DNA from: a virus
DNA length: 24,045 bases
Strand: one strand, 5' to 3'
Virus record (IMG/VR): IMGVR_UViG_3300032797_000076
Coordinates: 1-24,045 of that record
Position numbers and translations under genes: made by a program. Below, piece after piece: positions 2,606 through 22,901 of this stretch (position 1 is the stretch's first letter; each line of letters begins with the position of its first letter). The notes under the pieces were generated by a model. The model worked only from the letters and a program-made list of their open reading frames with translations. It searched no databases and was not told where the DNA came from.

Positions 2606-5600
2606 ATGACTTATGATTTGCTCACTGGTAGATTACTGAAACCCAGGGAAAGTCCCAGCCGTCTTAATCTGTTTGGGACTCAGACAACTCAAGCGCCGAC
2701 GAAGACGGCCTGGGATATGATGGCTTCAAGCTATCAGGGTGATATGCCTCTTACCCTGAAATACGCCAACGGCCAAACGGTAAAGGCATATGTCAATACG
2801 AAGGGCGAAGTCTGGTCTGGTAATCAGATGCTTGGGACCTATGACCGAACATGGCGTGTTTATACGCCGAGAGCCAAGGGATTGGGAACACAACTTGCCG
2901 AAAAGGGCAAAGAACTGGTGAGTTTGGCTTTTAAGCCCTTTGAGTATTTTCAAGAATATGTTGCGAAACCTTTTGCTGTGGGTGTAACAGCGCCGGCATG
3001 GACAAAGACCTGGTGGGAATCAAAGACACCTGAAGAGCAAGCGGCATTGACGGCTCAAGGGTTAAAACCCGGAGAATTGGGGGCACAAAATGCGTGGGAA
3101 TTTACAAAAGGCTTTTTCTCAAAGCAGGGAGAATTCCGTCAAGCCTATGAGAAGTGGCAAGCTCCGAAGTTCGTCAAGGGGGCAATAGAAACCCTGCCTT
3201 GGTTCATTCTGCCATCATTTACTAAGATAGCAGACCTTTTAGGTGGAGCGGGTAAGGTTGGTGCGGTTGCCGCCAAAGGTTTGACACCCTATGTTCTTCT
3301 GGAAAAGGGCATGGAAAAGGTTATCAACATTCCCATCAAGGCTGGTGAAAAACTGATTAAAAATATCAGTCTGATTAAGAAGGTTGAGTTGCCTTCTCTG
3401 GCTCCAAGCGAAGCTATCACCGCAGAAATACAACAACTTCACCCAGAAAGACTAAGAGGTTATGGCAAGGTTGGCCTTCCTTTCATTACCGCTACTCAAG
3501 TTCAAAAAGCGGAGATTGCCCAGAGAGTCGAGCCACTATTCAGGGCGATGGAAGTTGAGAAGCGGTACATTGAGGAAGTCTCTGGTAAGGCTATGGACAG
3601 GGGAGTGTCTACTGTAGCCAGATTGGGAGACCCTAAGACCTTGTTCCAGCTTGATGATAATATGGTTGTCAAAGCCGCCCATATTGTGCCTAAGACTGAG
3701 GGCGCAAGCATGGGCATTTACGATGTTCTGCGTAATCCTTCGCAATACCGATGGACTGGGGCGAAGGGCAGAGAGGCACGAATCTGGGCAGAACAACTCT
3801 ATCAGGTTTACGGTGGTCTTGACGAGTTTACTACACGATTTGTCAAGAGAACACCTGAAGGATTTGGAAGAACCGAGGAAAAGTATGTTCACTCCCAGGT
3901 AATCGCCAAGAAAGACACTGAGACGGGCAAAGTCTTGTGGTCGACTGACCTTTATCCTGGTGGGGCAAAGGGTGGGCTCGCCTCATCCTTTAAGTTGCCA
4001 GTATTCAAAACGCAGGCTGAAGGCATTAAGGCTGGGTATGTTTATGCTGACCCCCTCCAAGCTCTGGCCGTTGACATTAAGGAACGATATAACATGGCGA
4101 TGTTTGACCGGATGGAGCAATATGTAAAGCCATTGACGCAGACGGGGAAAGAACGAATCAGCCAGGATATTCTCGACCAAGTAAAGTCTTATGCACGGGA
4201 GACAAAGCAGTTAAGTTTTATCAATGACCGCCTTAATCGTGTCAGGCGTGGTGAAATTCTGCCCTGGCAAACTATGAGAGCAATTGAAAGTATCTATCCT
4301 GATGCTGGCCGAGCTATCCGATTCCAGATGGATAAGAGAGCCGCAAAGTTTACTGACCTGCAAAGGCACGCTTTTGAATTAGAAAACAGGTTGGCGGCGG
4401 AGGTTGAAGCATCGGCACGGATGACTGAACCTATCGCTGGGGGGGTTGGCAAGAATACCACGATAGCAATTGGCTCTGACCCACTCAAACGGTATTCCTT
4501 TAAGTTCGAGGTCATTGATGCAGACAAGGCAATTACCTCACATACCAGCACTTTCACGGCTAACCCGGAGTATCCCAAAGATTTGCAGGCCAGATTGAGA
4601 GAAAGGGCGGCACCGAGAGAGCAAATAGAACGTATAGCCAGAGAACTCGACCCTGACGCCTTGCTGGTTGATACCCACCGGCTTGATTCGGGGCCGATGA
4701 TTCTCGGTGCCGACAACATAGTGGAAAGTGGCAACGGGCGTATCATGGCTGTCAAACGAGCCATTGAGGGATACCCTGAACGCTATCAGGCATATCGGCA
4801 GCGTCTTGAGAATACGGCAGAACTTTACGGATTGAAGCCTGAAGATATAAAGAAAATGAAAAACCCAGTGCTGGTTCGGCGCAGAATCACGGAAGTGCCA
4901 AATAGGGCTGAGTTTGCCAGGGAAGCCAACCTCAGTGTCGCTACTCAGATGAGTCCTGTGGAACTGGCCTTTGCTGATGCCCAGTATATCTCCGAGGAAT
5001 CGCTTGGCGGGTTGGTCATTGAAGGTAAGACATCTTTAACCGATGCCTTACAGGATACAGCCAATGCTAGTTTTGTGGCTCGCTTTATGGCGAATATCCC
5101 TGTTGTGGACAAGGGACAATTTCTGACCAGTACAGGGTCGTTAAGCAAGGTCGGGTTGGACAGGATAGGCAATGCCATATTAGCAAAGGCTTTCCCCGGT
5201 CGCTTCGGTTTGAGACTTGCCGAACTGAATATTGAGGCTACCGAAGTTGCGTCAAAGAATGTCATTGCTGGTCTCGCTGGTGCTTCTGCTGACTTGGCGA
5301 AGTTGACCAGCGCTATAAATCGAGGCCAACTGAGTGATGACTACCATATAGCGCTTGACTTGGCTGAAGCCTCCGACAGATTCATTCGCAATAAACTCAG
5401 AGGCTTGCCGATTGAAGGCGCGATGCAACCAGACCTCTTTGAACCAGTCGCTACCCCAATTCAGCAGGCTTTGATTAGAGCGCTGGATAAACATTCTCGG
5501 TCATCGGTGGCGGTCAGGGATTTTATTAGGCAATATACTCAACAGGCTTTGGGGCAACCTGCGGCTGGACAGGTCTTGATGCCAGGATTTGAGCGACTTG

Positions 5601-8263
5601 GTAGGGAACAACTGTTAGGCAAGATTCTGGGAGAGAAGATTCCAGAATCGCCAGTATTAAAACCTGTAGTTCCGATTGTGGAAAAGCCAATAGTTGCGAC
5701 AGAAGCAATCATCCCTAAAGCCGAGCCTTGGACCGTCGGTACGAGGGGTAAGGTTATTAGCTTTTATGCTGATACACCTGTTGGCAAAGAAGGTGAAGTT
5801 GTAAAGTCCTGGACAGTGGCAGCAGGTACACATAAGGGGCAGGTTTATGCGACACTTGATTTTGGGGCAAACTTATCTGGTCAAAGGTTAAGAAGAACCT
5901 TTCCAATCGAATCGCTTGAACAAATAGAACCAGTAATTCCCAAAGCCGAAGCTGGTATGCCAGAGGTTGCGAAGGTAACTGAACAGGTTATACCTCCAAA
6001 GCCAACTAAAGCCATTCCAGCCGAGCCAGAGTGGACGTTAGGAAAACTTATAAAAGATGTTAAGGCTCGTCTTACGGGTCTTAAGGCCGAAGCCAAAGCC
6101 TTTGTGCCTATCTATCGGGAGGCCAGAGAAAAGGCATATAAGGCCGCCTTTAGTGAAGGTCGGGTGATTGATGTACCGCGCTGGATGAGCCGGATTGTTC
6201 CCGATAATACTGAGTTAGGTATTCCTGGCCGAGAAATAGCCAGACGGATAGAGAAAATAATGAATCCCGAGAGAGCGCCGAAGATACTCACAAAGTTTGG
6301 TCATATCTCAAGGGGTTTGATTACTTTACAAGCTGCACTCGATACTTCACTTCTGTTTATGCAGGGTTCACTTGTGTTGGGACATGATGTGGCACAATGG
6401 GCGGAAGGTAGGAAATCTTCTGGCTTTTACAACTTAGCTAAGGAAATGGTCAAGTCCATGTGGAATCCCAAGTATCAGGATGAGTTCATAGCTTCTAAAG
6501 TCACGAATGACATGATAGAAAGTGGACTGATAGTGCAAAAGGCGGTGGACTATCTGAATCCTGACGACATTGAGACTCTAATGAGAAAGGGTGGCAAGGT
6601 TGGTGGTTTCTTCGGCAATATTTTCAAGGGGTCTTATGGCCGTGCCGGTGCCGGCTTCGGTAGTGGTTCTCTTGCCGCCAGGGTAACAATCTTCAACCAG
6701 ATGAAAGAGAGTTGGGTGGCCGAAGGTCACAGCCTGGTAGAATTAGCTGAGTTTGCCAATAAGATTACTGGGGTTATCTCGTCAAAGGAACTTGGAGTGA
6801 GTGCCACAAGGCGGGCAATTGAAAGCGCCACACTGTTCGCTCCGAACTACACCAGGGCTTATCTGATGGTTGCCAGGGATGTTTTCAGGGGCAATAAGAC
6901 AGCCAGTGAGGTCAGGAAGGCATTGGCTGGTATGACGGCGGCGGGTGTTCTCGGCTATGTAGGTCTATGTGAGATGATTGGTCAGGAACCAAAACTTAAC
7001 CCGGCCCCGAAAGACCTGGGGGGCGATGGTGCTGACTTTATGACCTTTAAGATTGGCAATTCCACTATTGGTGTTCCGGGTTTCTGGTATTCGGCTTTGA
7101 GAATGATGGCGGGCGTTACTGCGGCCGCGCAGAAAGACCCCGAAAGGTTGTTAAGCCTTGATTCTAGCAAGAATGATTTTCTGAAGTTCTGGACTGGCCG
7201 GTTATCACCTTTGATGCAAGTCGGCAGGGAGATAATTACCCAGAGGGACTTTATGGGTCGCCGGTTGAAAGACCCCGGCGATTGGGTGAACGAACTCGGC
7301 AGTCAATTTCTGACCTTCGCCGCACAGAATCTTGTCTTGACTAACCCCGGAGAGGAACAGGACAAGGGTATCAGGTTTGGGGCAGAAATCTTCGGCCTTC
7401 GAACTTTCCCTACAAGCGATTGGACAAAATTGAAGGCTCTAAAAGAGCAGTATGCCAAGACAGATTTTGACAAGCCATTCGACCAATTGAATCAGGAACA
7501 AAAGGATAAGCTACTGGCGGGACATAATGATTACAAGTTACTGAATGAGCAGGCCAAAGAACTCGCCATTATGGAGAGCGGGGAGGATGTAGACATTCAG
7601 ATAATGCAGGTCAGGAAGACAGCCGATGCTATTTACAATGCCGGGGTAGAGCAAGCGGCACAGAGTTTACTTCAAGGCGGAATGACTTACAGGGATTATC
7701 TGGATGCTGAAGCCAGTCTTCACAAGGTCTATAAGGGAATGAAGTTTGCTATCAATGAAATCAAGAAGTATGACCCGGCAATTGAAAAGTCGCTGACGAA
7801 CTATCTTGAGAATAGACAGCCAGAGGATAAGGCAGTTGACGAGTATTGGGATGAAGAAACCGATGAATTACGCCAAGCCTACCTGAATTCTCTTGATTCT
7901 CAAACGAGAACATATGTGCAAAGAAATAGGGATAGCTGGGTAAATACACTACCGCCAACAGCGCAGAAGCTGGCGCGGCTTCAGGTGGCTGGTCGGGATA
8001 TTGTTCAAGAGTATTATGCCTTGCCACAAGGGGCCGAGCGACTAAAATATCGCCGGGCTAATCCGACTGTGGATGCGTGGTTGCTGGTGATGGGCCGGGT
8101 GACAGATGCACAAACGCAGATGGCAACCACTTATGCCCAGCAATTGCTTCTGCGGTATGGTTTGCCAGGTACTTTAATTGGGGGCAGTCTTTTGGCTTCA
8201 CTTGCGACAAGCCAAACTCAGGCACCAGGGATAGGCAAGGTCGTTTGGACTAAAGTGAGATAA
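2606..8263 (+). CDS. Giant polyvalent/internal virion-like protein with ParB/ddrB-like domain, 1885 aa
   Basis: One uninterrupted frame of 1885 codons, by far the largest gene here. Residues about 609-800 contain a ParB-superfamily (ddrB-like) module: strands YSFKFEVID, then D-T-H-R-L-D-S-G-P, then a GNGRIMAVKRA motif near residue 710, and a helical tail ending LSVATQMSPVELAFADAQYI. I know this module from large polyvalent phage proteins injected with DNA. A Pro/Val-rich linker near residues 1005-1145 contains repeated 'I-P-K-A-E' phrases. Hydrophobic segments occur near 1236-1262 and 1437-1459, in a region resembling the large polyvalent-associated C-terminal domains, and again near 1855-1870. 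Position between portal and scaffold, length and membrane-active segments fit a DNA-ejection protein comparable in role to T7 gp16, but homology to gp16 is not claimed. No peptidase or lysozyme motif was seen. Confidence 0.75.
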   Translation: MTYDLLTGRLLKPRESPSRLNLFGTQTTQAPTKTAWDMMASSYQGDMPLTLKYANGQTVKAYVNTKGEVWSGNQMLGTYDRTWRVYTPRAKGLGTQLAEKGKELVSLAFKPFEYFQEYVAKPFAVGVTAPAWTKTWWESKTPEEQAALTAQGLKPGELGAQNAWEFTKGFFSKQGEFRQAYEKWQAPKFVKGAIETLPWFILPSFTKIADLLGGAGKVGAVAAKGLTPYVLLEKGMEKVINIPIKAGEKLIKNISLIKKVELPSLAPSEAITAEIQQLHPERLRGYGKVGLPFITATQVQKAEIAQRVEPLFRAMEVEKRYIEEVSGKAMDRGVSTVARLGDPKTLFQLDDNMVVKAAHIVPKTEGASMGIYDVLRNPSQYRWTGAKGREARIWAEQLYQVYGGLDEFTTRFVKRTPEGFGRTEEKYVHSQVIAKKDTETGKVLWSTDLYPGGAKGGLASSFKLPVFKTQAEGIKAGYVYADPLQALAVDIKERYNMAMFDRMEQYVKPLTQTGKERISQDILDQVKSYARETKQLSFINDRLNRVRRGEILPWQTMRAIESIYPDAGRAIRFQMDKRAAKFTDLQRHAFELENRLAAEVEASARMTEPIAGGVGKNTTIAIGSDPLKRYSFKFEVIDADKAITSHTSTFTANPEYPKDLQARLRERAAPREQIERIARELDPDALLVDTHRLDSGPMILGADNIVESGNGRIMAVKRAIEGYPERYQAYRQRLENTAELYGLKPEDIKKMKNPVLVRRRITEVPNRAEFAREANLSVATQMSPVELAFADAQYISEESLGGLVIEGKTSLTDALQDTANASFVARFMANIPVVDKGQFLTSTGSLSKVGLDRIGNAILAKAFPGRFGLRLAELNIEATEVASKNVIAGLAGASADLAKLTSAINRGQLSDDYHIALDLAEASDRFIRNKLRGLPIEGAMQPDLFEPVATPIQQALIRALDKHSRSSVAVRDFIRQYTQQALGQPAAGQVLMPGFERLGREQLLGKILGEKIPESPVLKPVVPIVEKPIVATEAIIPKAEPWTVGTRGKVISFYADTPVGKEGEVVKSWTVAAGTHKGQVYATLDFGANLSGQRLRRTFPIESLEQIEPVIPKAEAGMPEVAKVTEQVIPPKPTKAIPAEPEWTLGKLIKDVKARLTGLKAEAKAFVPIYREAREKAYKAAFSEGRVIDVPRWMSRIVPDNTELGIPGREIARRIEKIMNPERAPKILTKFGHISRGLITLQAALDTSLLFMQGSLVLGHDVAQWAEGRKSSGFYNLAKEMVKSMWNPKYQDEFIASKVTNDMIESGLIVQKAVDYLNPDDIETLMRKGGKVGGFFGNIFKGSYGRAGAGFGSGSLAARVTIFNQMKESWVAEGHSLVELAEFANKITGVISSKELGVSATRRAIESATLFAPNYTRAYLMVARDVFRGNKTASEVRKALAGMTAAGVLGYVGLCEMIGQEPKLNPAPKDLGGDGADFMTFKIGNSTIGVPGFWYSALRMMAGVTAAAQKDPERLLSLDSSKNDFLKFWTGRLSPLMQVGREIITQRDFMGRRLKDPGDWVNELGSQFLTFAAQNLVLTNPGEEQDKGIRFGAEIFGLRTFPTSDWTKLKALKEQYAKTDFDKPFDQLNQEQKDKLLAGHNDYKLLNEQAKELAIMESGEDVDIQIMQVRKTADAIYNAGVEQAAQSLLQGGMTYRDYLDAEASLHKVYKGMKFAINEIKKYDPAIEKSLTNYLENRQPEDKAVDEYWDEETDELRQAYLNSLDSQTRTYVQRNRDSWVNTLPPTAQKLARLQVAGRDIVQEYYALPQGAERLKYRRANPTVDAWLLVMGRVTDAQTQMATTYAQQLLLRYGLPGTLIGGSLLASLATSQTQAPGIGKVVWTKVR

Positions 8264-11479: not shown

Positions 11480-13378
11480 ATGCAGATAATCAGGGAAGTC
11501 ATTGGCGATAACTTATCGCCTGTGAATCTATCTGATGGAAGCTGGCTGAATGCCACTCAAGCTGGGTTTGACGCTAGGCCACAACCTCTAAAACCTAATG
11601 AGGTCGTTTGGGGAACGCCATTGCCTAAACCGCAGGTAGCGCTCTTCTGGCCGACTAAAAGTGCCTTTGCCTGGCTGGTTGATGGGAAGCTGGTCTGCGA
11701 GGCATACATCAGGCTCATCTCAGGTACTCAATCTTTCTTGTTGACCAACCCACAGGCCAGGGTAGCCGAGTATGCCACAGACGCAAAACAGAGTAAGTTC
11801 GGCTGGACAGCCAACTATAGGATTCTAAACCGTGACTTTCCTTTCTACATGCGCCAGGTGGCATCACCTATTCGGGAAGACTTCGCCATTCAGGTTGGAT
11901 TCACCGCTCCCAGAACAATCCCTGCTTTCTCCTATGAGTATGTCTTCATCCCTGGGCCGGATATTGACACGATAAGAGTGCACCGCCATAATCCGCCTCT
12001 ATATCAGACAGTAGATATTCCGATAATTCCCACGGCGAGCACGGACTTTTCCTCCGACACCAGCCCGAATATCAACTTTTTATCCAGCGGCGAGTTCATA
12101 GCCAACTTTCATTGCCGAGACCTCTGGGAAAAGGCGCAGAGTCGCTATTACAAGATTGAGTCGGTGACGATAGATGGCGCGCCAAAGCTGGCTGTTGTTA
12201 TCGGCTTCCGCTTTCCGGGGCTTACATTGGGGCAGCAATTCACGAACGATGGCTACTTTGGCTCTACGGGTTATGCTGACACGACTTCAGAAGGTGCCAA
12301 TTATTTGCAGGCCAGTAAGTGGCAGAACACGGTCGGCACTGGCACGCTGACAAAACTTGCGATTCAATTTGTGGACACGTCACCCACAGGCAATGTTAAA
12401 CTGGCGGTTTATACCAACAACGGAAGCAACCGGCCTGATGTCTTGGTGGTTAATGCTGGGGCTATTGCCGTAGCCAACGGCTGGGTAGAAATCAGCGGGC
12501 TGAGTGCTTCGGTGACAACTGCCCTATATTACTGGCTTACTTTCTTACAGGACAGCACTAATACCATTGGCTTGAACTGGCTAGACCCCGAAACTCGGGC
12601 ATATAAGGCAAGGCAATATACTGCTGGCCCCCCCAACCCCTTCGGCACTCCTGATGGGGTAGATGGCTACAGAATGGCCATGCGGGCTTATGTCACCCTG
12701 GGGGGAGGGACGACTTACTACCAAACTTTAACGGGGGTAGCAGTTGGGGCAGGAGTTCTCTCTAAGATAGGTGGTTTCAAAAGGACTTTGACCACCACGG
12801 CAATTGGCACACCAGTTCTCTCTAAACTAGGTAACTTTTATAGGACTTTGACTGCCATTGCTACCGCTTCAGCTATATTGAACAAGGGAATGTATAAGGT
12901 CTTGACGGCTACGGCTGTTGGAGTGCCACTATTGACTGCACAAAAAGTCTTTCTCAAACTTCTTGCCGCAACCGCTCAAGGCACAGCAACTCTCTATAAA
13001 GTTGTCTCGAAGAGTTTAGCCGCTATTGCCACTGGTACTCCAGTTCTGTCTAAGGTAGGTAGTTTCTATCGGACTCTATCTGCAACTGCGGTCGGTGTAG
13101 TTACACTGGCCAAGCCAGCCACATTTTATAGGAGTCTCTTGGCTACTGCTGTCGGTAGTGCGGTGCTTTCCAAAATAGCCACCTTCTATCGTGCCCTCTC
13201 AGCTACCTCTTCTGGCATTGCTGGACTAACTAAGACTTTTATCGCCGCAGGAGCAATGACTTATTACCAAACTCTTACTGCGGTTGCTCAAGGAGTATCT
13301 GTTCTGACTGGGATTACAATCCGGGCTTACGAACTTCTCTTACGACCCTTTGCCCATAGTCCAAAAAGGGGAGGATAA
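11480..13378 (+). CDS. Tail/fibre-like protein with ten ~20-residue repeats, 632 aa
   Basis: ATG 11480 follows AAAGGCGGG. Residues 1-240 form an ordered N-terminal part with Trp and Pro (WPTKSAFAWLVDGKLVCEAY). Residues about 250-405 look like a beta-sandwich/lectin-like module (TLGQQFTNDGYFGSTGYADT ... GNVKLAVYTNNGSNRPDVL ... YYWLTFLQD), similar in style to modules of phage adhesins. From residue 413 to about 614 there are ten units of 19-25 residues with the consensus Y-R-T-L-x-A-T-A-x-G-x-x-x-L-S-K. The tail is basic (SPKRGG). The repeats are divergent at DNA level, unlike the 12-nt repeats near 22.5 kb. It probably forms part of a tail appendage. It touches the next gene (TAAATG). Confidence 0.65.
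   Translation: MQIIREVIGDNLSPVNLSDGSWLNATQAGFDARPQPLKPNEVVWGTPLPKPQVALFWPTKSAFAWLVDGKLVCEAYIRLISGTQSFLLTNPQARVAEYATDAKQSKFGWTANYRILNRDFPFYMRQVASPIREDFAIQVGFTAPRTIPAFSYEYVFIPGPDIDTIRVHRHNPPLYQTVDIPIIPTASTDFSSDTSPNINFLSSGEFIANFHCRDLWEKAQSRYYKIESVTIDGAPKLAVVIGFRFPGLTLGQQFTNDGYFGSTGYADTTSEGANYLQASKWQNTVGTGTLTKLAIQFVDTSPTGNVKLAVYTNNGSNRPDVLVVNAGAIAVANGWVEISGLSASVTTALYYWLTFLQDSTNTIGLNWLDPETRAYKARQYTAGPPNPFGTPDGVDGYRMAMRAYVTLGGGTTYYQTLTGVAVGAGVLSKIGGFKRTLTTTAIGTPVLSKLGNFYRTLTAIATASAILNKGMYKVLTATAVGVPLLTAQKVFLKLLAATAQGTATLYKVVSKSLAAIATGTPVLSKVGSFYRTLSATAVGVVTLAKPATFYRSLLATAVGSAVLSKIATFYRALSATSSGIAGLTKTFIAAGAMTYYQTLTAVAQGVSVLTGITIRAYELLLRPFAHSPKRGG
12716..13321 (+). repeat. Ten degenerate ~60-nt coding repeats
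   Basis: Protein units begin YYQTLTGVAVG, KRTLTTTAIG, YRTLTAIATA, KVLTATAVG, LKLLAATAQG, KSLAAIATG, YRTLSATAVG, YRSLLATAVG, YRALSATSSG and YYQTLTAVAQG. The first and last units share YYQTLT preceded by a Gly/Ala-rich linker, as if capping the array. Synonymous differences are abundant, so the array is old relative to the window's other repeat. Confidence 0.8.
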
Positions 13379-14614: not shown

Positions 14615-14812
14615 ATGGAAGAAATTAAGATAATCTCAAGTAATAAAGATGGTGCTGAACTCAGGAGAGAAAAAATCTCGACCAAATATACGGTCAGATG
14701 CGATGGAAAAGCAGATGATGAAGAAATACAGGATGCTCTTTCTGAAGCTGGGACTAAAAAATGGTTTGGTTTAGGAACAGCCTGGGATAGAGTTTTCGGA
14801 GGTAAACCATGA
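14615..14812 (+). CDS. Second beta-helix N-terminal fragment, 65 aa (split gene part 2)
   Basis: The preferred start is ATG 14615; a GTG at 14612 is possible. The short protein (EEIKIISSNKDGAELRREKI) contains a second copy of the beta-helix entry motif, VRCDGKADDEEIQDALSEAG, comparable with the CDGTADDVEIQAAIDA of the fragment just upstream. It ends in RVFGGKP and its stop overlaps the next start (ATGA at 14809-14812). GGAGG at 14799-14803 lies in its final codons and serves the next gene. It may be an alternative N-terminal cap for the downstream tailspike. Confidence 0.55.
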   Translation: MEEIKIISSNKDGAELRREKISTKYTVRCDGKADDEEIQDALSEAGTKKWFGLGTAWDRVFGGKP

Positions 14813-16065
14813 GTGGAAAAGTCCTTCTTACAGATGGGCAGTTCAATATTGCCTCCAAATTGGTCATTGCCAAGCCCAGCATTGATTTTTGTGGTTATGG
14901 CCATTCTTCACTTCTTAAGGCTACTGCTATATTAGCCGATGATATTTTGGAGGTCACGGAGCAGTATGCAAGTGTACATGACCTCCGCCTTGATGGAGCT
15001 TTGCAAACGGCTGGTAATGGTCTAGTCTTCAATCGTCCTGCTCCTGGTCAGCAGTATTCAAAGGCTTATGGAATAGATTTGGAGAACATCTATGGCATCG
15101 GTTTGAGAGTTGCAGGAGGCTCGGATTGGAGAGGCCATGACATCAGAACGTATTGTTGCGGGACTGGAGTTTCAATAGAAACATCTGGTATCACCCTCAC
15201 GGATTATCTTCTTGTCGGGGATGACACAGGTTTGTCCATTTCTAATGGCGGTTGGCTGTACTTTTATGCTGGGCGTATCTGGGGTTGTGTCAATTACGGC
15301 ATTGACTTAATAAAAGGTGCCTGGATTGGCTTCCAGGGACTTGACGTTGATAATCTAGGTAAGCATGGCATCTATATTCACCCCAGCGTGGCTGGCAATG
15401 ACGTGTACTATGTTCTCCTCGATGGCATTCATGTGATGGAGACGAGTAAAGACGGGAATGATGTCTATGATGGTATTCATATCACGAGAACGGGCTCTGG
15501 ATTGGCAACAAAGGTAGTAATAACCAATAGTTTTCTATCAGATTATCCTTATGCTAGATATGCCTTGTTCTCCGATTGCCCAGGAAGCCTTAATGTATAT
15601 AGGAATCCTCTCATATCCTCAATAAGTGTTCCTTTCAGGTCTGATGTCATTGTTGAAGACAATCCTGATATTTTGGGTAGTCAAGAAACTAGAATGGAAT
15701 ACGTTGCCCTTACTCCTGGTTTGGCCGATGCTTTCACCTTTAACTGGCAAAATCCCTATGATAAGAACTGTATCGTTAAGCGGATAGTGGTTTATATCTG
15801 GGTATCTGGCGGAACGGCAACAGCCGTACTTAATATTGGAGTGGCTTCAAATACGGGAGTAGAATCCGATAACTTAATTGATGGATTAGACCTTAACCAA
15901 ACAGGTGTTTTTGATAATCTTGGCAATCCAGGAACAAATGGTAAGACTGTACAGATTCTTAATGCCAAGAATGGAGCGAACGATTGGATTACGGGAGTCA
16001 TTAAAGTGGCGAATGCCTCCAGTTTAGCAGGAAGAGTATTTATTGAGCTAAGAGCAACCCCATAG
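14809..16065 (+). CDS. Pectate-lyase-like beta-helix tailspike, 418 aa
   Basis: ATG 14809 overlaps the previous stop (ATGA) and has its own GGAGG. Residues 1-15 (SGKVLLTDGQFNIA) are the strand that normally continues the 'C-D-G-x-x-D-D-x-x-I' motif, showing that this protein starts inside a domain. Residues 20-290 are a right-handed parallel beta-helix with short Gly/Asn/Asp-rich turns (GIDLENIYGIGLRVAGGSDW, GIYIHPSVAG). Residues about 300-418 are a jelly-roll-like C-terminal domain. Such spikes bind and often cleave host surface polysaccharide; catalytic residues could not be assigned. The last 63 residues recur in the gene at 16165. Confidence 0.7.
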   Translation: MSGKVLLTDGQFNIASKLVIAKPSIDFCGYGHSSLLKATAILADDILEVTEQYASVHDLRLDGALQTAGNGLVFNRPAPGQQYSKAYGIDLENIYGIGLRVAGGSDWRGHDIRTYCCGTGVSIETSGITLTDYLLVGDDTGLSISNGGWLYFYAGRIWGCVNYGIDLIKGAWIGFQGLDVDNLGKHGIYIHPSVAGNDVYYVLLDGIHVMETSKDGNDVYDGIHITRTGSGLATKVVITNSFLSDYPYARYALFSDCPGSLNVYRNPLISSISVPFRSDVIVEDNPDILGSQETRMEYVALTPGLADAFTFNWQNPYDKNCIVKRIVVYIWVSGGTATAVLNIGVASNTGVESDNLIDGLDLNQTGVFDNLGNPGTNGKTVQILNAKNGANDWITGVIKVANASSLAGRVFIELRATP

Positions 16066-16090: not shown

Positions 16091-16186
16091 ATGACACTGC
16101 CAAATATTCAGGCACCAAATGAAGTACCATCAGACAATTGCTTACTACATAAAGGGAAAAGGGGATGGCTGATATTGACAACCTAG
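16091..16186 (+). CDS. Very short ORF, 31 aa, doubtful
   Basis: ATG 16091 to TAG 16186, overlapping the start of the next gene by 22 nt. A weak ribosome binding site (GGGG at 16080-16084) precedes it. The peptide MTLPNIQAPNEVPSDN resembles the linker-like starts of phage adhesin accessory proteins, but there is no recognisable domain. It may be the remnant of an N-terminal part of the duplicated tailspike domain that follows. Confidence 0.25.
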   Translation: MTLPNIQAPNEVPSDNCLLHKGKRGWLILTT

Positions 16187-16485
16187 GGCCCGGGACGATA
16201 GATGTAGAAACAGAACGGGCTAGAGAAGCAGCCTGGAAAGAACTGGTTGACAAGAAGTTCAATGGGGATGAAGCCGCCGCCGTCTACCAGACGCTGATTG
16301 ATGGGCTTGATATTAACCAGACAGGCATATTTGACAATATTGAGAATAAGGGTGTGAACGGCAAAACCACTGGTCTTCTTCATGCCGCTGGTGGAGCTAA
16401 TGACTGGCTCACTGGCAGGATTAAAGTAGCCAATGCCAGCAATCTAGCTGGCAGGGTCTACATAGAAGTAAGAGCTGGGCCGTAA
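16165..16485 (+). CDS. Stand-alone tailspike C-terminal domain, 106 aa
   Basis: ATG 16165 with AAAAGGGG upstream. Residues 1-40 are a charged helix (ETERAREAAWKELVDKKF). Residues 44-106 match residues 356-418 of the tailspike at 14809 without gaps; by eye 45 of 63 positions are identical (shared GANDW, IKVANAS, LAGRV). The domain has short beta strands and looks like the trimerisation or receptor-binding end of a spike. The gene is thus a paralogue of the spike's C-terminus fused to a different N-terminal helix. It may exchange with or decorate the spike tip, or be a leftover of a tandem duplication. Confidence 0.7.
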   Translation: MADIDNLGPGTIDVETERAREAAWKELVDKKFNGDEAAAVYQTLIDGLDINQTGIFDNIENKGVNGKTTGLLHAAGGANDWLTGRIKVANASNLAGRVYIEVRAGP

Positions 16486-22011: not shown

Positions 22012-22036
22012 GGCATAATAGGGGCAAAAAGTAGGG
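22012..22036 (+). repeat. 25-nt direct repeat, copy 1 (leader of repeat-protein gene)
   Basis: It begins GGCATAATAGGGG and ends AAAAAGTAGGG, immediately followed by GAGGG and ATG 22045, so it includes or borders the ribosome binding site. An identical 25-nt copy is at 22877-22901. AATAGGG (22017-22023) can pair with CCCTATT (21990-21996). Confidence 0.9.
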
Positions 22037-22044
22037 GAGGGAAA

Positions 22045-22869
22045 ATGAAGACGAAAAGGGTCTTAGGTTTCAAACTTGCCCGCCCCGATGGATTTGATTT
22101 CTACACTGGAAAGACTATCAATTACCGTGAAAATGTTGGTCAGATAGTCAGACCACCAAAGCCGAATGCATCGTTGGGAGTTTGTAGTTCAGGTGTTTTG
22201 CACGCCAGCAAGAACCCGAAAGATTGCTTTGTCGGCGCTAATATACCTTGTTCCGCATATCGGGTAAGCGGTATCCCCGTTTGTGGAGACAAAACGAAAT
22301 GGGGATTTATTGAACTGAAAGTTATCCGTGAAATCAGTGATTTAGATAAACTGTTTGGGTGGAAGTATTCCGAAGTCATCAACCCAATTTATCCTTTTAA
22401 ACTACGCCAGGTTACACAAGTAACCAATGAACAAATAGACCTATTAAGACAATGGGCTTCGGTCAGGGCTTCGGTCTGGGATTCGGTCTGGGATTCGGTC
22501 AGGGATTCGGTCTGGGCTTCGGTCAGGGATTCGGTCTGGGCTTCGGTCTGGGCTTCGGTCAGGGATTCGGTCTGGGCTTCGGTCTGGGATTCGGTCTGGG
22601 ATTCGGTCTGGGCTTCGGTCAGGGATTCGGTCTGGGGTTCGGTCAGGGATTCGGTCTGGGCTTCGGTCAGGGCTTCGGTCAGGGATTACGTCAGTTCACT
22701 ATTCCCCAATATCAAAAAGTGGAAGTTTACCAAACATAAAGCGGGAATTTATCCATTCCAGCCAGCAGTGGATTTATGGAGACAGGGAATAGTCCCTAGC
22801 TTTGATGGTAAGTTGTGGCACCTCCATTCAGGGGAAAAAGCAACGATTATTTGGGAAGGAAAACTCTAA
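22045..22869 (+). CDS. DUF7666-like protein with 19 SVW/SVR tetrapeptide repeats, 274 aa
   Basis: ATG 22045 follows GGGGAGGG. Residues 1-110 resemble the N-terminal module (DUF7666-like) of phage proteins: a 'G-V-L-H-A-S-K-N-P-K-D-C' phrase, then strands ending 'F-I-E-L-K-V-I-R-E-I'. Residues 138-213 are 19 units of four, [A/D/G]-S-V-[W/R]. A C-terminal domain follows (YPFQPAVDLWRQGIVPSFDGK). Trp on one side and Arg on the other may form an extended ladder. I know similar 'SVWDSV' tails in phage proteins without an assigned role. The gene lies between the metallopeptidase and a coiled-coil gene. Function unknown. Confidence 0.65.
   Translation: MKTKRVLGFKLARPDGFDFYTGKTINYRENVGQIVRPPKPNASLGVCSSGVLHASKNPKDCFVGANIPCSAYRVSGIPVCGDKTKWGFIELKVIREISDLDKLFGWKYSEVINPIYPFKLRQVTQVTNEQIDLLRQWASVRASVWDSVWDSVRDSVWASVRDSVWASVWASVRDSVWASVWDSVWDSVWASVRDSVWGSVRDSVWASVRASVRDYVSSLFPNIKKWKFTKHKAGIYPFQPAVDLWRQGIVPSFDGKLWHLHSGEKATIIWEGKL
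22456..22683 (+). repeat. 12-nt tandem repeat, 19 copies (coding)
   Basis: Each unit is G(C/A/G)T-TCG-GTC-(T/A)GG. The codons TCG and GTC are invariant in all 19 units; only the second base of codon 1 and the first base of codon 4 vary. Order: AR AW DW DR DW AR DW AW AR DW AW DW DW AR DW GR DW AR AR (first and fourth residues). Confidence 0.95.
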
Positions 22870-22876
22870 AGTAAGA

Positions 22877-22901
22877 GGCATAATAGGGGCAAAAAGTAGG
22901 G
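22877..22901 (+). repeat. 25-nt direct repeat, copy 2 (leader of coiled-coil gene)
   Basis: Identical to 22012-22036 over 25 nt and preceded, as near the earlier gene, by a stop codon context TCTAAAGTAA. The downstream ribosome binding site is GGAGGGG and the start is ATG 22911. Confidence 0.9.

Follow-up and report, generated by a model that had tools for sequence, protein, structure and literature searches.

The stretch analysed here, hereafter the window, comprises 24,045 nucleotides (positions 1 to 24,045 of IMG/VR virus record IMGVR_UViG_3300032797_000076) and carries near its right end a gene with a tandem tetrapeptide array (Table 1). The encoded protein consists of an N-terminal domain with a DUF7666-like fold (about residues 1-115), the array, and a conserved C-terminal domain with the motif AYIGSLFPNIKKWK..VPSFDGKxWxLHSG. 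Copies of a perfect direct repeat, GGCATAATAGGGGCAAAAAGTAGGG, stand on both sides of the gene and occur only twice in the window (0 expected). Because the gene is located beyond the capsid and tail genes, after an SprT-like gene, a virion role is unlikely, and its product is probably a non-virion phage protein. Elsewhere in the window, two ORFs share copies of one module, LIDGLDxNQTGxFDN...GANDWxTGxIKVANAS, and further features are given in Table 1.

Table 1. Positions of the array gene, its surroundings and other features mentioned in the text
Feature	Sequence	Position	Strand	Remarks
Array-carrying ORF	Window	22045..22869	+	274 aa; N-terminal domain, array, C-terminal domain
Tetrapeptide array	Window	22456..22683	+	19 units [D/A/G]SV[W/R] of 12 bp; ten invariant positions, variation at 2 and 10
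Degenerate twentieth unit	Window	22684..22695	+	DYVS; opens the conserved C-terminal domain
Leader repeat, left copy	Window	22012..22036	+	25 bp; upstream of the array gene
Leader repeat, right copy	Window	22877..22901	+	25 bp; follows the array gene and precedes the next ORF
Alternative open frame across the array	Window	22452-22739		95-aa ORF encoding (GFGLGFGQ)n
Putative tail-region protein	Window	11480-13378		C-terminal half repeats a degenerate unit, FYRTLTATAVGxxVLSK, of about 25 residues (visual inspection)
ORF with module copy	Window	14809-16065		Module in the last ~60 residues
ORF with module copy	Window	16165-16485		Module makes up most of the ORF
Large ORF	Window	2606-8263		1,885 aa; ddrB-like ParB domain (E 1.6e-27)
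Partner gene	L041	5360-5662		~100 aa; 47 further loci besides L041 and L188
Partner gene	L188	2694-3005		~100 aa
Giant array	L079	5668-7479		151 units; DUF6745-type protein of about 896 aa

At the DNA level, the unit of the window array reads G[A/C/G]T-TCG-GTC-[T/A]GG in the frame of the ORF, and the window contains 18 copies of the core pattern TCGGTCNGGGNTTCGGTC against 0 expected (TRF score of the array, 344). We confirmed the 19 in-frame units and the ten invariant positions described in an earlier note on this DNA. Its further statement that each variable position carries two bases was accurate for both sites apart from a single G at position 2, the base counts being A9/C9/G1 at position 2 and T11/A8 at position 10. 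Another contig from this phage, L002, differs by 1 SNP in 8 kb and contains an identical array; this agreement bears on the possibility of assembly collapse raised in that note.

The same pattern is common to more than 120 other phage genes. With the window protein as query, 79 loci were found in viral contigs; two relatives used as queries retrieved many more, and bacterial genomes contributed 13 loci, of which some are doubtful. The resulting array set comprises 125 non-redundant [D/A]SV[W/R/G] arrays of at least 10 units each, with 2,959 units in total and 10 to 151 units per array. These arrays occur in at least three architectures, namely the window type with its DUF7666-like N-terminal domain, the MCKxFS type, whose C-terminal domain is the same as that of the window type, and DUF6745 proteins. 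Many arrays lie within DUF6745 (PF20530) proteins (L041, E 6e-65), including the giant array of L079, whose residues are more divergent, and some follow a DUF7666 (PF24703) domain (L034, E 9e-9). Repeat-free relatives were also found: in the homologues L009, L011 and L012, a degenerate, largely non-repetitive stretch occupies the place of the array, and gp174 of the cultured cyanophage Ma-LMM01 is a homologue without repeats. Arrays built on other cores were detected as well. Mycobacterium phage prophiGD102-1 gp38 carries a sister array with the core QL, [D/G]QL[W/R/G], of 46 units by scan, of which 45 are clean with ten positions invariant, and phage cta39025 carries 28 SSL[G/E/W/R] units (core SL).

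A gene of ~100 aa adjoins most DUF6745-type array genes on the same strand and is present at 49 of the 125 loci overall. Its product contains the motifs RQGDV, GHxH and HEEH (RQGDVLI..GEVTGHAH..HEEH..REYxPExIRNVxD) and has no Pfam match, and the gene is absent beside the array gene of the window. It also adjoins the repeat-free gp174 of Ma-LMM01, where it is annotated as gp175.

Across the 125 arrays, the median within-array heterozygosity was 0 at positions 1, 3-9, 11 and 12, but 0.497 at position 2 (D/A) and 0.667 at position 10 (W/R/G). The homogenisation at the DNA level that the earlier note had proposed for the window thus holds throughout the set, each array having its own Ser and Val codons. 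Between arrays these codons differ, and we counted 26 synonymous backgrounds that include both TCN and AGY serine. The same two codons are variable on the 26 backgrounds and in the sister [D/G]QL[W/R/G] arrays. Both alternatives are well represented within single arrays: D-type and A-type codons each occurred two or more times in 105 of 125 arrays, and W, R and G all did so in 104 of 125. The arrays are also more than the Trp/Arg ladder that had been suggested from the window, since most of them have glycine as a third common state.

The fourfold-degenerate site of the Val codon provides an internal reference for this polymorphism. Its heterozygosity was 0.039, compared with 0.459 at position 2 and 0.640 at position 10 (p < 1e-4 in both tests). 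When we controlled for codon background by taking one array per background (n=26), the means were 0.052 at the Val site and 0.464 and 0.629 at the two variable positions (p 9e-6 for position 2 and 3e-8 for position 10). In a homogenising array, neutral sites are expected to resemble the Val site, and neutral concerted evolution therefore fails to account for the data; something specific keeps residues 1 and 4 variable. This comparison bears directly on the possibility that the array is a passive spacer, a flexible or helical linker in which length and residues 1 and 4 are irrelevant and vary by slippage and drift. The range of array lengths and the repeat-free homologues at the same place, both noted above, fit such a linker. 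Drift, however, predicts that homogenisation would reach the two sites as it reaches the fourfold-degenerate sites, whose diversity within those units is 12-17 times lower. The base spectrum at position 2 of the SV arrays (1587 A, 1037 C, 68 G, 34 T) is likewise non-neutral, because A/C outnumbers the transition A/G. We therefore regard the passive spacer as unlikely.

The restriction of variability to two codons might alternatively reflect targeted mutagenesis, in which every unit is rewritten at positions 2 and 10, either by reverse transcription of the kind found in diversity-generating retroelements (DGRs) or by a different site-specific mutator. DGR variable regions are known for diversity at fixed codons of a phage protein, a likeness that the phage arrays share. 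In addition, both adenines of the window unit GATTCGGTCAGG are the two variable positions, and the remaining positions are clean in the 125 arrays. Against this mechanism, the adenine at position 4 of AGC-Ser arrays is not comparably variable, and the outcomes are confined to D/A and W/R/G rather than to all reachable residues. Each array also uses one Arg codon, with AGG and CGG mixed in 2 of 102 arrays, and its D and A codons end in a single base, with mixtures in 4 of 125 arrays. Reverse transcriptase (PF00078) was detected in none of 32 phage records, some of which may be fragments, and the controls were positive. The stable AGC-Ser adenines, the single Arg codon and the lack of a reverse transcriptase in these records argue against DGR mutagenesis, which was rejected on the substitution spectrum and the latter result, and we consider targeted mutagenesis of either kind quite improbable; the arrays further differ from DGR variable regions in being tandem. 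The single Arg codon and single third base point instead to founder units spread by exchange, not to repeated random mutation. We infer that selection, rather than site-specific mutation, is behind the polymorphism at the two sites.

Units are identical at the DNA level within an array, as would be expected if the 12-bp unit served as a recombination or protein-binding site and its coding were secondary. The same design is, however, encoded on 26 synonymous backgrounds and with the cores QL and SL. The retention of both TCN and AGY Ser codons means that the amino acids are conserved and the DNA motif is not; the candidate role of a DNA element was rejected on this ground and is highly improbable.

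We then examined the order of units. The earlier note had reported that D accompanies W in 8 of 9 units and R accompanies A or G in 7 of 8, and these counts are correct for the window array. The linkage is modest in that array alone (Fisher p = 0.02) and does not extend to a general rule, since residues 1 and 4 within a unit were independent across the 125 arrays (odds ratio of D with W, 1.01). The consistent association spans the unit border, with W followed by D (z 5.0) and G followed by A (z 3.7). In permutations in which units were shuffled within arrays, units resembled one another at lags 2 and 4 (z about 3 to 3.6) and not at odd lags, which lends weak support to the proposed 8-residue super-repeat. 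Duplicated four-unit words numbered 125 against 31 in the shuffles (z 16), an excess that block duplication would give. All of these z values are indicative only, because arrays of related phages are not independent. A helical-face periodicity (lag 9) gave no signal across arrays, and the D/R net-charge balance followed no clear rule (mean net charge per unit -0.23, with a wide spread).

Comparison of near-identical phages showed that the arrays turn over, their length and order changing faster than the remainder of the gene, in agreement with the earlier suggestion that length and order could change by slippage or recombination. The cleanest pair is formed by prophiGD102-1, with 46 units, and the prophage in L263, with 19, whose flanks are 100% identical over 2,000 bp on the upstream side and 1,500 bp on the downstream side and which also share an 8,950-bp structural block at 100% identity; a third relative has 62 units. 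Assembly collapse was rejected for this pair (L259/L263), because L263 contains two-unit words that are absent from L259 and the length difference is hence not a collapsed repeat. The arrays of L041 and L044 are exactly one four-unit block apart, and their flanks show 1 mismatch in 6 kb. Scrambled arrays were observed in L239/L249 (flanks 99.5 and 100%), L015/L019 (98.6 to 99.2%) and L080/L190 (99.5%, over 190 bp only). Turnover is not extreme, given that 13 of the 14 tabulated pairs with flanks of 99.9-100%, some possibly from related samples, share identical arrays, and two Nocardia farcinica copies, which are one sequence with a few indels, are uninformative on this point. These comparisons are best explained if array length and order have been renewed once the flanks have diverged by about 0.5 to 1%.

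In 19 of 115 viral arrays, the array lies within 60 bp of a contig end, where we estimate a chance expectation of about 1% (array about 270 bp, contigs tens of kb). This excess indicates that assemblers break at arrays; by itself it is not proof of population variation, because L264, an apparent isolate genome, breaks there too. Since metagenome assemblies break in arrays and are the source of most arrays of the set, some unit orders may be wrong.

We also examined protein structure and family membership. AlphaFold predicted helices in the array of the window protein, although with low confidence (pLDDT 32-74 there, 81.7 overall), and likewise low-confidence helices in the array of L068, a protein of another architecture. 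In a Foldseek search against BFVD, the top match of the N-terminal domain of the window protein was a DUF7666 protein (E 3.4e-4, prob 1.00) and the third match was another; the fold matches were DUF7666 proteins of phages and giant viruses, with a few further viral proteins named pentapeptide or ankyrin repeat proteins. By sequence, the window protein had no match above the Pfam cut-off, including DUF7666 (PF24703) and DUF6745 (PF20530), whereas L034, whose array is of this kind too, exceeds the DUF7666 gathering score (36.2 vs 27 bits). Searches of the PDB by sequence or fold returned no convincing relative. PADLOC-DB gave no match for the window protein and one weak match across the array of L034.

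On this evidence, we consider it probable that the array is a hypervariable tandem-repeat domain that is homogenised and reshuffled while two residues are kept mixed by selection, most likely as a variable binding surface. Unequal recombination, or slippage during replication, would make the 12-bp units uniform and reshuffle them; the core dipeptide (Ser-Val in the window) would be under purifying selection, and selection would maintain the mixture of D/A and W/R/G at two residues per unit. The anatomy of the arrays, the polymorphism of the two sites on different codon backgrounds and the turnover between near-identical phages are observed directly; the argument for selection is strong, and the binding role is inferred. 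The resulting string may then form a variable, likely helical, binding surface between two conserved domains, directed at a target that changes over time, for which a host factor, a competing phage or a defence protein are candidates. More tentatively, and with some doubt, we propose that many unrelated phages share a small recognition string of combinatorial type. Its four-residue units would combine a constant core with two residues (D/A/G and W/R/G) that recombine freely, and recombination would rewrite the string as its target changes.

Several known systems resemble these arrays in part. TALE repeats are nearly identical units of 33-35 aa with two adjacent hypervariable residues, in arrays altered by recombination. 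The phage arrays share the homogenised units and the two adjacent variable residues (x4 and the next x1), but their units have 4 aa and no sequence relation to TALE, and nucleic-acid binding is without support. DUF6745 proteins host many of the arrays, a DUF7666 domain precedes some, and the window N-terminal domain is DUF7666-like by fold, but neither the array nor its variability falls within the Pfam matches. In phages and giant viruses, pentapeptide and other short repeats also follow a DUF7666-like domain, judging from match names, but the period of the phage array is 4 and not 5, and it is predicted, with low confidence, to be helical and not beta-helical. The chain TLP-4 of PDB 9ikm shares a four-residue period, but its profile match is weak (E 0.018) and driven by low complexity, and its TASX repeats are of another kind; we do not consider it homologous. 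Intragenic tandem repeats of changing length are well known. What is apparently undescribed, as far as we found, is a widespread set of arrays whose four-residue units are polymorphic at two constant places, on codon backgrounds that are homogenised within arrays but differ between them, and with different cores; a literature search found no paper naming DUF6745, DUF7666 or the repeat peptides, which is weak evidence as its coverage is incomplete.

If the proposed reading is true, phages of diverse hosts have a compact diversity-generating domain that works without a retroelement, through the shuffling of 12-bp units, and the arrays offer a direct test of selection holding a residue mixture against the uniformity imposed by concerted evolution. 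A prophage of cultured Mycobacterium and the repeat-free homologue in a cultured cyanophage make it testable, with the caution that assembly from short reads breaks genes of this kind and may put their units in the wrong order.

We further observed, in L257 and other viral contigs, tetrapeptide stretches that have an alanine core ([D/G]AA[W/R/Q]) and homogenised codons. An alanine-core query gave more than 600 pattern matches in viral contigs, of which few were confirmed and two were readable as short arrays. These matches hint at a wider class of such repeats.
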